Part shown: positions 2,935-16,282 of the stretch, in pieces
How positions within the stretch are numbered: position 1 is the first letter of the stretch
Layout: each line of letters begins with the position of its first letter
From: Gammaproteobacteria bacterium
GTDB lineage: Bacteria > Pseudomonadota > Gammaproteobacteria > Ga0077536
Assembly (NCBI GenBank): GCA_019747795.1
Contig: JAIEQK010000264.1
Coordinates: 1-35,270 of the forward strand
DNA length: 35,270 nucleotides
Direction of reading: 5' to 3'
Notes under the pieces: generated by a model
Database searches by the model: none
Seen by the model: the letters and a program-made list of their open reading frames with translations, nothing else
What the model was told of the DNA's origin: nothing
Translations under genes and position numbers: made by a program

Positions 2935-2947
2935 AGTCCGACACGTC

Positions 2948-3031
2948 TGTAGGTCGGACTTCAGTCCGACATTCGTTCCAGTGCTTCATCCCCAGCATTG
3001 AATCGAATGTCGGGTTGAAACCCGACCTACA
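2948..3031. repeat. REP-like palindromic unit B (complete)
   Basis: Complete two-palindrome unit: TGTAG, palindrome GTCGGACTTCAGTCCGAC (2953-2970), ATTCGTTCCAG, a short loop, then palindrome GTCGGGTTGAAACCCGAC (3009-3026) and CTACA. The outer ends are inverted copies of each other, so the whole unit can fold on itself. It ends 9 bp before the stop of the minus-strand redoxin gene and might act as its transcription end or mRNA stabiliser. Confidence 0.8.
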
Positions 3032-3039
3032 GGTTCGCG

Positions 3040-4212
3040 TCAGGCCGTTTGCCCCAGATCCGCCGGCGGATAGAACTGCCGATCGCCCCGCGCGTCCACC
3101 GCTTCCCAGAAGTCCGGCCCGGAGTTCAGGGTGCCGACCTTGTCCGGGTCGAGCATGTTGGACTGGCGACGGTAGTTCCAGCTCTCCGGGCACAGCCGCA
3201 CCGCTTCCTTGAAGTGGTGCTTGGCCCGCTCGAGCTGACCCTTCGCGTACAGATGCCGGCCGAGCCGCACATGGGTCGCGGCGAGCACGTCGGCGGCGCT
3301 CGGGCCGCGCATGCGCTTGCGCACTTCCTCAGGTGAGAGCGCATAGCCGCTCGCGGCGCCGTGCTTCGCCCAGTCGCGCAGCGCGTCGATGTAGGCGTCG
3401 CGATGGGCCATGCCGCGTTCGGCGTCAGCGTCGGGGATCTCGAAGGTCTCGCGGTTCATCGAGCGCACCATGTCGATGGTGCCGGCCGATTCCGCCGGTC
3501 GCACGATGCGGCCCTGCTCGTCGATCCACACCCCCTGCGGCACGTTGGTGATGCCGTAGAGCTCCGCCACCACGTGCGCCTCGTCGATGAGACAGGTGTA
3601 GGTCGGCGGCGCCTGCCGCGCCCACAGCGCGGGTGACCAGCCCATCAGCCGCGCGAGGGCCTCTGGCCGTTCACGGCAATCGGCGGCGCGAATCGCGGCT
3701 TCGACGGCTTTCTTGCCACCGGTGTCCAACGCTACGGCGAGGATCTCCACGCCCTGGTCCTTCAGCTCTGCATACACTGCCTGCCACACGGACAGGTCAA
3801 AGCTGCAGCCTCAGTAGGAGCCCCAGGAGAACATGAAGACTTTCTTGCCGCGAAAGTCGGAGAGCGAATGCAGCTTGCCGTCGAGGTCCGGCAGGGTGAA
3901 GTCCGGCGCTTCCAGCGAGAACAGCGCGTCGTGACGCGTGCCGACGCTCTCGCCGAAGGCGATGGCGTTGCCGTCTTCCAGCATGGGCTGCCCCATGTGG
4001 CGGGCGAAGGCGGCCAGATCGACCTTGCCGTCCTTCGTCCAGGTGGGCTGCACGCGCACGCAGGCGTCGCCGCGGCACAGGCCCTCGGTCTCGAGCTTCC
4101 AGCCGGTGGCGGCCTGCATGTCCGCCGGCGCCAGCCATAGATGTTGGCCCTCGCGCGTCGCGGCCACGTTTTCCGTGACCCGATCGTCGTAGAGCAGGGT
4201 GGTGTTGGTCAT
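3040..4212 (-). CDS. Redoxin domain-containing selenoprotein (in-frame TGA read as selenocysteine)
   Basis: One continuous reading frame of 390 residues from the ATG at 4212, crossed only by a TGA at 3811-3813 (residue 134). Residues 1-95 are an N-terminal region I do not recognise. Residues 100-133 (LEAPDFTLPDLDGK, then RGKKVFMFSWGSY) are the start of an AhpC/TSA-redoxin fold. The TGA comes next, followed by GC and SFDLSVWQ, so the motif is U-G-C where cysteine homologues have C-G-C. Beyond it the fold continues (ILAVALDT, VPQGVWIDEQGRIV with the cis-Pro loop), and a TPR-like helical pair follows (LGRHLYAKGQLERAKHHFKEA). The protein is probably a cytoplasmic thiol/selenol reductase or peroxidase; no signal peptide is seen. 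The alternative is a nonsense mutation or sequencing error, but continued coding quality after the TGA and its position at the redox residue argue against that. Confidence 0.8.
3768..3808 (-). promoter_or_regulatory. Candidate bacterial SECIS hairpin downstream of the UGA
   Basis: Counting from U1 of the UGA, an upper stem can form between nt 13-19 and 29-34 (UUUGACC with GGCAGG, one bulged A, two G-U pairs). It is closed by a 9-nt apical loop UGUCCGUGU whose second base is G. A lower stem pairs CUGCA (6-10) with UGCAG (42-46). The loop begins 16 nt after the UGA, and the position, loop size and early G agree with the loose bacterial SECIS consensus. The stem is weak and was found by eye, so the call is tentative. 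Confidence 0.4.
3811..3813 (-). other. Putative selenocysteine (UGA) codon, residue 134 of the redoxin protein
   Basis: On the minus strand the codons read TCC TAC TGA GGC TGC AGC. The frame is identical before and after, with no frameshift. The TGA lies two residues before Cys136, giving U-x-C in the place of a redox-active C-x-C after the strand MFSWGS. Redoxin families with Sec/Cys exchange at this site are known; that this copy is decoded as Sec depends on selA, selB, selC and selD elsewhere in the genome. Confidence 0.75.
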
Positions 4213-4246: not shown

Positions 4247-5449
4247 TCACTTTAGACTCTCGCGGGGGACCAAGTCACGGGCGAGCAGCACGAACAGCGC
4301 CGCCGCGGCCGCGAACAGGGCGCCGCCGCCGAACGCGCCCGCCGCGCCGAAGCCATCCCACAGGAGTCCGGCCAGGGCGCTGGCCGCGAGCATCGCCACA
4401 CCGCTCGTCAGGTTGAACAGGCCGAAGGCGGAGCCGCGCAGCGCGGCCGGCGCATGGTCGGCGACCAGCTTGGCGAGCAGGCCCTGGCTCAACGCCATGT
4501 GCAGACCCCACAGCGCGATGCCCGCGAAAGTGAGCGGGAGAGCGCTAGCCGCGGCGAGCAGCAGGTCGGCGACGATGAGCGCGCCCAGCGCCGCCAGCAG
4601 CAGCCCGCGGGCCGCCACGCGATCGGCGAGCAGCCCCGCGGGATAGGCGCCGAGCGCGTAGACCACGTTCATCGCCACCAGCACCGCCGGCGCGAGCGCG
4701 AGCGGGAGTCCCACGGCGTGGGCCTTCAGCACCAGGAAGGCCTCGCTGAAGCGCGCCAGGGTGAACAGCACGCCGAGCGCCACCACGCGCCAGAAGCCGG
4801 CATCCAGCGCGCGCAGCTCGGCGAGCGCGATGGGCGCGCGCGGCGGGGCACGTTCCGCGGACCCGGGCGCGTCCTCCACGCCGAACAGCACCGTCAGCAC
4901 GCACAGCGCCGCGGGCAGCGTCGCGCACCAGAACACCAGGCGGAAGTCGTCGGCGAAGAGCGCCATGAGACCGATGGCGGCGAGCGGGCCGAGAAACGCC
5001 CCGACCGTGTCCAGCGACTGGCGCAGCCCGTAAGCCTGGCCGCGCTGCACGAGCGGCGTGACGTCGGCGATGAGCGCGTCGCGCGGCGCGCCGCGCAGGC
5101 CCTTGCCGATCCGATCGATGAAGCGCGCGCCGAACACCAGGGTGGCGCTGCCGGCGAGCGGGAACAGCGGCTTGGCGAGCGCGCCCAGGCCGTAGCCGAG
5201 CAGGATGAGCGGCTTGCGTCGGCCGAGCCGGTCGGACAAATAGCCTGAGAACACCTTGGCGATGGCGGCGGTGGCCTCGGCCACGCCGTCGATGACGCCG
5301 ACCAGGGACATGCTCGCGCCGAGCGACACGGTCAGGAACAGCGGCAGCAGCGCGTGGATGATCTCGGACGAGGCATCCATCAGCAGGCTGACGAGGCCGA
5401 GCGCCCAGACGGTGCGGGGCAGGGGCGGGCGCGACGCTGAGGATGGCAT
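4247..5449 (-). CDS. MFS transporter, substrate unknown
   Basis: A 400-aa integral membrane protein with about 12 hydrophobic segments. The ATG at 5449 gives MPSSASRPPLPRTVWALGLV, so helix 1 follows at once; the open frame upstream of it is Arg/Ala-rich and not membrane-like. The cytoplasmic loop between helices 2 and 3 carries the MFS signature (SGYLSDRLGRRKPL), with a related motif, GLLADRVAARGLLL, in the second half. The MDASSEIIHALLPLFL opening matches a group of MFS proteins usually annotated without substrate. It is divergent from nirB across a 205-bp gap, so joint control is possible. The nitrate-signature motifs of NarK-type carriers are not apparent, so a nitrate or nitrite role is not claimed. 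Confidence 0.85.
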   Translation of the reverse strand: MPSSASRPPLPRTVWALGLVSLLMDASSEIIHALLPLFLTVSLGASMSLVGVIDGVAEATAAIAKVFSGYLSDRLGRRKPLILLGYGLGALAKPLFPLAGSATLVFGARFIDRIGKGLRGAPRDALIADVTPLVQRGQAYGLRQSLDTVGAFLGPLAAIGLMALFADDFRLVFWCATLPAALCVLTVLFGVEDAPGSAERAPPRAPIALAELRALDAGFWRVVALGVLFTLARFSEAFLVLKAHAVGLPLALAPAVLVAMNVVYALGAYPAGLLADRVAARGLLLAALGALIVADLLLAAASALPLTFAGIALWGLHMALSQGLLAKLVADHAPAALRGSAFGLFNLTSGVAMLAASALAGLLWDGFGAAGAFGGGALFAAAAALFVLLARDLVPRESLK

Positions 5450-5654
5450 GGCCGAACCTTGGCGCACACGGCGACCGAAAAGCAATCGCGCCGGCGCCCT
5501 GCCCTGGTGCGGACGGCGCGCCGACGGTGCGCTTTGGACCGCGCTGTCGCCGACGACTCGCCAGGAGGCAGGTGACGCGCGCTGGCCTCGCATTTGCAGC
5601 GCACGGTGAGCGCGCCTCGTGCGCGCGCCTCGTCCGACCCAGGAGCGCCTTCAC

Positions 5655-8102
5655 ATGGCCCGCAAGCTCGTCATCATCGGCAACGGCATGGCCCCTGGCC
5701 GCCTGCTCGAAGCGCTGCTCGAGCAGGATCGCGAGGCCTTCGCGATCACGGTGTTCAACGCCGAGCCGCGGGTCAATTACGACCGCATCCAGCTGTCGCC
5801 CGTGCTGGCGGGCGACAAGTGCTTTGATGACATCGTCATCCACGACGATGCCTGGTACGCCGCGCACGGCATCACGCTGCACAAGGGCCTGGCGGTGACC
5901 GCCATCGATCGCGCGGCGCACGAGGTCATCGCCGCCGACGGCAGCCGCGCGGCCTACGACGAACTGGTGATAGCCACCGGCTCGCGGCCGCTGTTGCCGC
6001 CGCTGCCGGGGCGCGAGCTGGCCGGCGTGGTGACCTTCCGCGATCAGGACGACGTCGACACGATGCTCGCGGCCGCCGCGCGCGGCGGTCGCGCGGTGGT
6101 GATCGGCGGCGGGCTGCTCGGTCTCGAGGCCGCCGCGGGCCTGGCCGCGCGCGGCATGCAGGTCACGGTGCTGCATCTCGCCGCGAGCCTCATGGAGCGC
6201 CAGCTCGACGCCGCCGCCGGCTACCTGCTGGCCGAGGCGCTGCGCGGGCGGGGCATAGAGGTCGTGACGGAGGCGGAGACCCGCGCGCTGCTTGGTGACA
6301 TGCGCGTCACCGGCGTGGAACTGCGCGACGGCCGGCGCTACCCGGCGGACCTCGTGGTGGTCGCCATCGGCATCCGTCCCAACGTCGAGCTGGCGGACGC
6401 CGCGGGTCTCGCCGTCGCCCGCGGCATCCTGGTCGACGACGGGCTCGCCACCTCCGACCCCGCCATCCACGCGCTCGGCGAATGCGTCGAGCATCGCGGC
6501 CAGTGCTACGGCCTCGTTGCGCCGCTCTACGAGATGGCCCGCGTGCTGGCCACGCGGCTGCTGGGCGGGACCGCCAGCTACGCGGGGTCCACGCTCTCGA
6601 CCCGGCTCAAGGTGAGCGGCATCGAGGTCTACTCTGCCGGCGACTTCGCCGACGGCGAGGGTCGCGAGGAAATCGTGCTGCGCGACGCCGCGCGGCACAC
6701 CTACAAGCGCCTGACCGTCGCCGACGACCGCATCGTCGGCGTGGTGCTCTTCGGCGACACGCGCGATGGGCCCTGGTTCTTCCAGCAGCTGCGCGAGGGC
6801 ACGGACATCGGCGCGTGGCGCGACACCCTGATCTTCGGCCAGCATCACCAGGGCGACGCCGCGCCGGACCCGTCAGCCGCGGTCGCCGCGCTACCGGACA
6901 GCGCGGAGATCTGCGGCTGCAACGGCGTGTGCAAGGGGCGCATCGTCGGCGCGATTCGCGAGCAGCGCCTCACCACCGTCGAACAGGTGCGCGCCCACAC
7001 CAAGGCCTCGTCGTCCTGCGGCTCCTGTACCGGGCTGGTCGAGCAGCTCCTGAAGTGCGAACTCGGCGACGGCTTCCGCGTCGACGCCGCGCCGCCGATG
7101 TGCGGCTGCACCGCGCTCGGCCACGACGACGTGCGGCGGCTGATTCTCGCGCGCGCGCTGAAGTCCATTCCCGAGGTCATGCAGGCGCTCGAGTGGCGCA
7201 CCTCCTGCGGCTGCGCGAAGTGTCGCCCGGCGCTCAACTACTACCTGCTCGCGGCCTGGCCCGGCGAGTACCGGGACGATTACCAGTCGCGCTACATCAA
7301 CGAGCGCGCCCACGCCAACATCCAGAAGGACGGCACGTTCTCGGTGGTGCCGCGCATGTGGGGCGGCATGACCACGCCGGCCGAGCTGCGCGCCATCGCC
7401 GACGTCGCCGAGCGCTTCGGCATTCCGGCGGTGAAGGTCACCGGCGGTCAGCGCATCGACCTGCTCGGGGTGCGCAAGCAGGACCTGCCGGCGGTGTGGG
7501 CCGAGTTGAACGCGGCGGGCATGGTCTCGGGACACGCCTACGGCAAGGCCTTGCGCACGGTGAAGACCTGCGTCGGCAAGGAGTGGTGCCGCTTCGGCAC
7601 GCAGGATTCCACCGCGCTCGGCATTCGCCTGGAGAAATACCTGTGGGGCGCGTGGACGCCGCACAAGGTCAAGCTCGCGGTGTCGGGCTGTCCGCGCAAC
7701 TGCGCCGAGGCCACCTGCAAGGACTTCGGCGTGGTATGCGTGGACTCGGGCTATGAGCTGCACTTCGCCGGCGCCGCCGACATGCACGTCAAGGCCACCG
7801 AACTGTTGGGCAACGTGGCTAGCGAGGACGAGGTGCTCGAATACTGCGCGGCCACGCTGCAGCTCTACCGCGAGCAGGGCCACTACCTCGAGCGCATGTA
7901 TACCTGGGCGGCGCGGGTCGGCGTCGCCACCATCCGCGCGCTGATCGTGGACGAGCCCGACAAGCGCGCCGCGCTGGTCGCGCGCTTCGAACTCGCCCAG
8001 CGCCACGCCCAGCACGACCCCTGGGCGCAGCGCGCCCACGGCCGCGAGAGTCGCGAGTTCCAGCCGCTGGCGCGGGTGGTGCGGGCGCGGGCCACGGCAT
8101 GA
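5655..8102 (+). CDS. nirB: Nitrite reductase [NAD(P)H], large subunit
   Basis: An 815-aa protein, close to the usual NirB length. The ATG at 5655 gives MARKLVIIGNGMAPGRLLEA, the FAD-binding Rossmann start. An NAD(P)H-binding motif lies at VVIGGGLLGLEAA. A BFD-like [2Fe-2S] domain begins at C420 (CGCNGVCKG, then SSCGSCTGLVEQ), followed by a second cysteine cluster (MCGCTALG and CGCAKCRPAL). The C-terminal sulfite/nitrite-reductase half holds the 4Fe-4S/siroheme ligands C639 and C645 (TCVGKEWCRFG) and C679 and C683 (SGCPRNCAEAT). Electrons pass from NAD(P)H through FAD and the clusters to siroheme, reducing nitrite to ammonium in the cytoplasm. It overlaps nirD by 4 bp. No nitrate reductase or nitrite carrier gene is adjacent. 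Confidence 0.96.
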   Translation: MARKLVIIGNGMAPGRLLEALLEQDREAFAITVFNAEPRVNYDRIQLSPVLAGDKCFDDIVIHDDAWYAAHGITLHKGLAVTAIDRAAHEVIAADGSRAAYDELVIATGSRPLLPPLPGRELAGVVTFRDQDDVDTMLAAAARGGRAVVIGGGLLGLEAAAGLAARGMQVTVLHLAASLMERQLDAAAGYLLAEALRGRGIEVVTEAETRALLGDMRVTGVELRDGRRYPADLVVVAIGIRPNVELADAAGLAVARGILVDDGLATSDPAIHALGECVEHRGQCYGLVAPLYEMARVLATRLLGGTASYAGSTLSTRLKVSGIEVYSAGDFADGEGREEIVLRDAARHTYKRLTVADDRIVGVVLFGDTRDGPWFFQQLREGTDIGAWRDTLIFGQHHQGDAAPDPSAAVAALPDSAEICGCNGVCKGRIVGAIREQRLTTVEQVRAHTKASSSCGSCTGLVEQLLKCELGDGFRVDAAPPMCGCTALGHDDVRRLILARALKSIPEVMQALEWRTSCGCAKCRPALNYYLLAAWPGEYRDDYQSRYINERAHANIQKDGTFSVVPRMWGGMTTPAELRAIADVAERFGIPAVKVTGGQRIDLLGVRKQDLPAVWAELNAAGMVSGHAYGKALRTVKTCVGKEWCRFGTQDSTALGIRLEKYLWGAWTPHKVKLAVSGCPRNCAEATCKDFGVVCVDSGYELHFAGAADMHVKATELLGNVASEDEVLEYCAATLQLYREQGHYLERMYTWAARVGVATIRALIVDEPDKRAALVARFELAQRHAQHDPWAQRAHGRESREFQPLARVVRARATA

Positions 8103-15517: not shown

Positions 15518-16282
15518 TCACGTCGCGCCGCGGGCGTCGTGCGCGAGCAGGAGATCGTGGTAGAGCGCGATCAGCACGGTGGTGATCAGCGGCAGCGCGA
15601 GCGTGTAGAGCAGCAGCGTGCCGGCGTTCACCAGGAAGGCGAGCAGCGGCGCGTCGAGCGCGCCGGCGCTGATCCCGAGCGCGGACATGATCGGCAACAC
15701 CTGGCCCACGAGTCCCAGCACCACGACCAGCGTGGTCGGCGCCGACACGATCAGCGACCCCCGCCACCAGTGTCCGCGCAGCAGCGCGAAGCTGCGCTTG
15801 TGGCTCTCGACAGTGCCGCGGTCCTCGGCGATCAGGACGACGGGGTAGAGCATCAGCGCCACGCCGAGATAGATGCCGGGCACGATCAGCACGGCGAGAC
15901 CGATGGACACCAGCAGGGCATAGAGCGCGGTCGCCGCCAGGGTGCGCGGCAGCAGGCGCAGGGCGCGCCGCAGAGCGCTGCCCAGGCCCATGTCCTGGCC
16001 GTAGGCCCGCGCCCAGCAGCGCGCCGTCATCGCCATCCAGGGCACCAGGCTCGCCACCAGGCAGAGCAGGACCGTCAGCATCGCGCCTTCGTCCGGCAGC
16101 GGCGATCGCGATGCGCCGCGCGCGGCGAGCAGCGTCGGCAGATGGGGCAGCAGCGCGATGGCCTGTGCGGCGACAGCGAGGGGCGCGCTCACGGCGAGCG
16201 TGTCGCGGTACAGCGCGACGCCGGTGGCCAGCACGCCGCGCGCCGACTGGGACGAGGTCGGCAGATGGAACCCGTCGCTCAT
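15518..16282 (-). CDS. Integral membrane protein, uncharacterised
   Basis: A 254-aa protein with about six hydrophobic segments (for example TLAATALYALLVSIGLAVLI, VPGIYLGVALMLYPVVLIAE, TTLVVVLGLVGQVLPIM). The GIYLGVALMLYPVVLIAEDR and ALLRGHWWR-type segments resemble the YciC-like / BPSS1780-like groups of membrane proteins in proteobacteria, which have no established function. It lies on the minus strand just upstream of MITE copy 1. The gap to the ketopantoate reductase-like gene upstream is 51 bp, so the two probably form one transcript. Confidence 0.7.
   Translation of the reverse strand: MSDGFHLPTSSQSARGVLATGVALYRDTLAVSAPLAVAAQAIALLPHLPTLLAARGASRSPLPDEGAMLTVLLCLVASLVPWMAMTARCWARAYGQDMGLGSALRRALRLLPRTLAATALYALLVSIGLAVLIVPGIYLGVALMLYPVVLIAEDRGTVESHKRSFALLRGHWWRGSLIVSAPTTLVVVLGLVGQVLPIMSALGISAGALDAPLLAFLVNAGTLLLYTLALPLITTVLIALYHDLLLAHDARGAT

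Follow-up and report, generated by a model that had tools for sequence, protein, structure and literature searches.

The window analysed here, 35,270 nucleotides of contig JAIEQK010000264.1 from a gammaproteobacterial draft genome, carries on its minus strand a gene for a redoxin of 390 residues whose frame contains a single internal stop, a TGA at codon 134. The gene starts with an ATG at 4212, preceded by AAGGA with six bases between, and is terminated by another TGA (3040-3042); the computed mass of the full-length product is 43 kDa. The sequence-only reading had described a frame open except for this TGA, flanked by MFSWGSY and GCSFDLSVW, and both descriptions were confirmed when the frame was read: the protein around the codon is KVFMFSWGSY-U-GCSFDLSVWQA. 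The features of the gene are collected in the table.

Features of the predicted selenoprotein gene (positions in the window)
Feature	Position	Strand	Basis
Coding region, 390 aa, residue 134 predicted as Sec (U)	3040..4212	-	Frame and full-length homologues
UGA predicted to encode Sec134, which opens the U-G-C redox motif	3811..3813	-	TGA in 56/56 site-covering copies
Candidate bacterial SECIS hairpin with a stem of 6 bp and the loop CGUGU (5 nt)	3780..3796	-	Folding and conservation
N-terminal domain, residues 1-96	3925..4212	-	No Pfam match; Cys46 and Cys51 invariant in 28 relatives
AhpC-TSA domain, residues 101-236	3505..3912	-	Pfam; NVP motif at residues 223-225
24-residue insert, residues 173-196, marking the long WGSYUGC branch	3625..3696	-	Alignment, tree
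TPR-like stretch within the helical C-terminal part, residues 311-343	3184..3282	-	TPR_2 26.8 bits, Pfam cut-off 27

The window is GC-rich, with long overlapping frames abundant on both strands, and 53 of its TGAs, the gene's own included, have at least 100 open codons on each side. Thus, an open frame around a TGA means little here by itself, and the comparison with homologues decides.

An MFS transporter gene (4247-5593) lies 34 nt upstream on the same strand, and beyond it a divergent gene (5619-8102) with Pyr_redox, Fer2_BFD and NIR_SIR domains looks like the one for nitrite reductase NirB. On the other strand, about 250 nt past the 3' end of the redoxin gene, there is a DDE transposase gene (1739-2794; DDE_Tnp_1, DUF772), and the stretch just downstream of the redoxin gene (2940-3030) contains, by eye, a pair of similar palindromes, GTAGGTCGGGTTTCAACCCGAC and GTCGGACTGAAGTCCGACCTAC, that look like a REP-type or intergenic repeat. 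Among the 31 loci compared (window included, flanks of unequal length), the MFS neighbour is common only to a genome of the same genus (G019, locus L094), and no conserved operon was found. Scans of the window with ARAGORN and Rfam found nothing.

Comparison with homologues revealed the same codon at the site throughout. Seven relatives of nearly the whole length were found in public genome contigs (67-74% identity over the best segment); TGA occupies the same codon in all seven, and the full-length relatives at these 7/7 loci identify the two sides of the TGA as one protein. These seven recur among the copies from the window's own family, where a search at E 1e-20 found one or more copies in 25 of 36 genomes and all 31 site-covering copies (25 genomes, the codon of the G010 copy having been read as one of them) contain exactly one internal TGA, at the UGC site. 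A repeated search of the 11 family genomes without a match gave one truncated copy, in G032, that ends before the site. Another class of the phylum was searched at E 1e-25; in this second class, the gene was found in 22 of 385 genomes, and TGA occurs at the site in 25/25 covering copies from these 22 genomes (24 read directly as TGA, one printed as a stop where the search counts one TGA). Pooled over the own family (31) and the second class (25), the site is TGA in 56/56 copies and Cys in 0/56. Since the TGA is conserved in relatives, a sequencing error at 3811-3813, which the sequence-only reading had named as a possible flaw, is excluded, and the Cys or sense codon that it had allowed for in close relatives is present in none of the copies found.

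That reading had also taken the TGA for one side of a Sec/Cys exchange, at the first Cys of a C-G-C motif in homologous redoxins. Neither idea is supported by the comparison: TGA is present in every site-covering copy found, no C-G-C form was found, and ordinary homologues such as ResA have CxxC. A full-length Cys homologue was found neither in the 36 own-family genomes nor in the 385 genomes of the second class. A draw of 369 genomes from the window's class gave matches at E 1e-20 in three genomes only, all of the own family and without a Cys form. A draw of 398 genomes from the phylum, searched with the NCBIfam model NF041054, matched 51 genomes at E 1e-15, none above the cut-off of the model and none with a full-length Cys form; only the matches in the window's own genome (G000) and G523 are nearly full length, the others covering the middle part at 57-77 bits. 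Five plasmid records, four of them with a ResA annotation and one unannotated, match no more than 39% of the query and include no full-length Cys homologue, and viral contigs gave no homologue. All these draws are samples, with the best four or five candidates scored per genome, and Cys forms may exist elsewhere, outside the sampled genomes.

Several individual copies deserve a remark. In the L143/L149 copy (G1060, contig C22), the frame before the Sec codon is open for 38 codons only and there is a TAG within the N-terminal half; decay of the gene or an error in assembly may be the cause. The divergent copy L140 (G886, contig C14) reads AYASWUGC and has a Gly at residue 142, which is elsewhere a conserved Val. 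The record CAMCQE010000009.1 (L005), titled 'Klebsiella pneumoniae', contains a gene 70% identical to that of the window; its protein equals that of G014, a genome of the window's family, and the species label therefore looks wrong.

The sequence-only reading had required that the organism decode Sec, and the complement of decoding genes bears this out. The genome of the window (5.9 Mb, 331 contigs, 99% complete) contains (i) a tRNA-Sec on contig C291 at 20917 (62.4 bits, cut-off 47; anticodon TCA by ARAGORN), (ii) selA and selB on the same contig at 16182 (593 bits) and 17573 (418.9 bits), and (iii) selD on contig C281 at 31694 (266.5 bits), the match beginning at profile position 38 near the contig end. 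The three protein matches are above the curated cut-offs. The cut-off for tRNA-Sec leaves room for other tRNAs: ARAGORN classes another match above it in this genome as a tRNA-Ser. Among 14 control genomes, the respective cut-offs were passed by tRNA-Sec in five, selA in one, selB in two and selD in two.

In the second class, selA was found in 22/22 genomes with the gene versus 34/363 without it (56/385 overall), the gene and selA draws being equal in size and the listed genomes common to both; the Fisher p of 6e-21 is uncorrected for relatedness (12 families). In the own family, where selA is so common that co-occurrence says little, the counts are 24/26 with the gene and 7/10 without (p 0.12). 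Two family genomes of 86-87% completeness, G010 and G029, have the gene and no selA match.

A candidate SECIS element follows the predicted Sec codon. The hairpin, CCUGUC-CGUGU-GGCAGG, begins 14 nt past the TGA. In the published bacterial SECIS model, a loop of 3-9 nt with a G within its first two positions closes a stem of 4-16 bp and lies 16-37 nt after the UGA (PMC13188914); the hairpin agrees with this geometry, having a 5-nt loop with G at position 2, a 6-bp stem and a loop that begins 20 nt past the UGA. Folding a 48-mer gives -18.1 kcal/mol, beyond the published limit of -7.5, and the 17-nt hairpin alone gives -6.6, short of this limit, whose legend leaves the folded stretch unspecified; the alignment consensus folds at -7.47 and -7.02 kcal/mol, so that flanks are needed to pass the limit. 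Six 48-mers gave z-scores between -0.04 and -2.53, and that of L121 has another minimum-energy fold. Under loose SECIS-like criteria, 133 of 700 TGAs in the window are followed by a hairpin. Thus, with such hairpins common and energy alone weak, we tested conservation, and the case for the element rests on it.

Synonymous sites were compared in 31 codon-aligned copies (30 of the own family and one from G523). Val142 is GTG in all 31 and Gln144 is CAG in 29, and these two columns have the lowest synonymous diversity relative to expectation among 97 conserved columns. The constraint peaks at residues 139-145 with a z of 22.0 in codon shuffles within each sequence; the best 7-codon block clear of residues 133-151 reaches 11.1, relatedness raising the values of all blocks.

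For 53 aligned copies from both classes, 97.1% of the pair cells are standard. Changes on both sides, from C-G to U-A, occur at two pairs (9 cells), whereas three of the six stem pairs never vary. The covariation score of these 53 rows was reached by 0 of 500 shuffles, in a control that leaves relatedness uncorrected. Three of five measures were reached by 0, 4 and 0 of 500 shuffles, and the remaining two, pairs changed on both sides and further pair types, by 388. In the 31 rows alone, covariation is not significant (54 of 500 shuffles reach the score). Alignment A3 leaves out L121 (the locus of L126) and L140 and L151, which were read by hand; L148-L150 are the loci of L144, L143 and L145 again. 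The loop reads AGUUU in L136 and AGGUU in L140, the copy with Gly for Val142, and both keep the stem and a loop G. A paralogue in the window's own genome has a hairpin identical to that of the window gene, although the two proteins are only 46% identical.

In the encoded protein, Pfam matches above cut-off were obtained for AhpC-TSA (52.2 bits, cut-off 26) and Redoxin (42 bits), and a sub-threshold one for glutathione peroxidase (GSHPx, PF00255; E 5e-4, 20 versus 27 bits). An AlphaFold2 model built from 28 relatives has a mean pLDDT of 90 and a pTM of 0.88. In this predicted model, residues 96-285 match DsbE/ResA structures at Z 13-14 and peroxiredoxins at Z about 12; the ten best rows have Z 13.1-14.4 and rmsd 2.0-2.5 over 133-139 aligned residues, and Foldseek likewise met the thioredoxin fold, with E down to 2.8e-10. 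Besides Cys46 and Cys51, the 28 aligned proteins share invariant Trp130, U134, Gly135, Cys136 and Asn223-Val224-Pro225 (L106, a near copy of L105, and the partial L052 and L122 were left out). For the N-terminal domain, the fragment from the window had no Pfam match, three families each matched one of 19 members at E 0.012 or worse, a PDB sequence search gave no match, and the best Foldseek E was 1.4; its best fold match (5h3k, Z 6.8, rmsd 4.1) is under the 7-8 typical where there is no clear match.

The closest catalogued entry is NF041054 of NCBIfam (WAxxUGC_long, 'ResA-like WAxxUGC motif-containing protein', equivalog). Homology extends across nearly its whole profile, with UGC at the same place, and all 28 aligned proteins match it at E 1e-10. 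The window protein aligns in two stretches (profile positions 8-162 and 155-352 of 354) and has an insert of 24 residues relative to short forms. It scores 297.6 bits against a cut-off of 300, a marginal miss, and its motif is WGSYUGC rather than WAxxUGC. Thus, we placed the window copy on a variant branch, outside NF041054 itself. When ten proteins were scored singly, two passed 300 bits, the long form L099 (311.3) and the short form L110 (304.7).

With ResA, TlpA and DsbE the protein has the predicted thioredoxin fold in common, and the first Cys of the ResA active site is the counterpart of U134 in the alignment; in contrast to the CxxC of ResA, U-G-C has one residue fewer before the second Cys. 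The window protein also differs from this group by an additional N-terminal domain and a C-terminal helical part. ResA, TlpA and DsbE are exported proteins, whereas no signal sequence or hydrophobic N-terminal stretch was seen by eye in the window protein, which is probably cytosolic. Glutathione peroxidases have Sec or Cys followed by Gly, and here the window match stays below the gathering score.

'Prx-like (UGC-containing)' selenoproteins of pfam00578 were described from ocean metagenomes in 2008 (PMC2398784) and tabulated again in later reviews (PMC9312934, PMC13188914); the 'UGC-containing TlpA disulfide reductase family protein' (PMC13188914) is probably of the same kind. The AhpC-TSA domain and the UGC motif are common to these proteins (PMC2398784, PMC9312934) and to that of the window, in a comparison with table rows that carry no length, insert or N-terminal domain. 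For the Prx-like kind, 855 Cys homologues were counted in the ocean data (PMC2398784), whereas for the full architecture of the window protein we found no Cys form in the genomes sampled. A literature search for 'WAxxUGC' with 'selenoprotein' or 'NCBIfam', the only name under which the long branch was sought, gave no match. Since NF041054 and the UGC-containing Prx-like entries cover the kind, the window gene is, by these comparisons, a predicted selenoprotein of a kind already catalogued, and its copy is on a separate branch of that kind.

In a tree of 30 proteins (midpoint root for drawing only; one long branch, G523; L052 left out), 17 long forms are separated from 13 short forms with 100/100 support. 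In the long forms, the motif is WGSYUGC and the distance from U to NVP is 89 residues; the short forms have WSSW, WASW or WAPY and 63-65 residues (L140 has YASW). Four rows gave no distance, of which three are distinct short forms and one is a truncated long form. Among 57 rows, WGSYUGC was observed in the window copy and 17 other long-branch rows. All long forms found belong to the window's own family, and four genomes (G000, G006, G027 and G035) have both forms. In the window's own genome, the second copy is the paralogue on contig C327 (27355-28458; L110:7314-8453, minus strand), a short form with WSSWUGC and one in-frame TGA.

Very probably, the TGA directs the insertion of selenocysteine into the active site of this thioredoxin-like protein, a redox enzyme; for the insertion itself, we rely on the conservation of the TGA, the decoding genes and the hairpin. 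As a whole, we hold with high confidence that the gene encodes a selenoprotein, a thioredoxin-fold oxidoreductase whose UGA at 3811-3813 is read as Sec via the hairpin at 3780-3796. In the proposed mechanism, SelB with Sec-tRNA-Sec would read this UGA, directed by the hairpin just downstream. Sec134, at the position of the first nucleophilic Cys of ResA, would attack a disulfide or peroxide, and Cys136 would resolve it as a selenenylsulfide. Either Cys46/Cys51 would then relay electrons or an external thiol system would reduce the Sec134-Cys136 pair. The presumed role is in thiol-disulfide or peroxide reduction.

Were the TGA a real stop, arising from pseudogene formation, a nonsense mutation or a sequencing error, the two halves would be separate or dead. 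The same triplet does terminate the gene, and errors occur in a draft genome of 331 contigs. However, the codon is TGA in 56/56 copies from two classes, with the frame kept and both halves conserved, and neither an error nor decay would strike the same redox-active codon repeatedly; pseudogene and sequencing error were rejected on these grounds, and a real stop is scarcely credible. Conservation of both halves is what any read-through should produce, translation as an ordinary residue included, whether as Trp after a code change or as Cys or Trp by leaky suppression. Against this explanation, TGA serves as the terminator of the selenoprotein gene, the second-class gene occurs only in genomes with selA (22/22), the SECIS-like element is constrained at synonymous sites, and in the alignment the codon falls on the first Cys of the ResA active site. 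A code change was rejected on these grounds, and we regard an ordinary residue as very improbable.

A further question, compatible with Sec insertion and refining it, is whether the selenoprotein is mainly a peroxidase of the GPx or Prx type and not a thiol-disulfide oxidoreductase. The AhpC-TSA and Redoxin scores, the sub-threshold GSHPx match and the Z of about 12 for peroxiredoxins, near the value of about 13 for ResA, speak for a peroxidase, as does the fact that Sec favours peroxide chemistry. The best matches in both sequence and structure are nevertheless ResA/DsbE, and neither the GPx tetrad nor the TxxC motif of Prx resembles a site with its resolving Cys two residues away. A mainly peroxidatic function is thus a real possibility, somewhat short of an even chance. 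Returning to the thioredoxin-fold selenoprotein as such, we suggest only tentatively, and consider rather unlikely, that the window copy represents an unrecognised Sec-only branch with a separate substrate, in which the insert would act as an active-site lid and a Cys46/Cys51 relay would recycle the Sec134-Cys136 selenenylsulfide.

As the sequence-only reading had foreseen for automated annotation, a Sec codon truncates or splits a gene under the standard code. NF041054 is the one NCBIfam model that comes near to naming the window protein, and since the gene would be split and scores just below its cut-off, annotation may overlook it. Divergent paralogues, and copies from two classes, share an almost unchanged SECIS-like hairpin, and a selenenylsulfide of the CXC type would sit within a ResA-like fold. 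The TGA in every copy found, the lack of a Cys form among the homologues found, the conserved hairpin and the CXC-type bond would together make this protein a usable test case for why some proteins keep Sec without a return to Cys.

In at least three of the 31 loci, the gene for the UGC selenoprotein is near a gene for a fusion of a pyridine-nucleotide oxidoreductase with SelD; fusions of the oxidoreductase-SelD type have been described (PMC2398784). These neighbours are suggestive of a link, not a general one, between the UGC selenoprotein and selenium supply. The fusion gene is on the same strand as a short form at two of these loci, 63 nt upstream in L113 (7823-10216) and 89 nt downstream in L111 (8083-10311), and at the third, L102 (3922-6153), it is separated by 1.06 kb from a long form and lies on the opposite strand to it.
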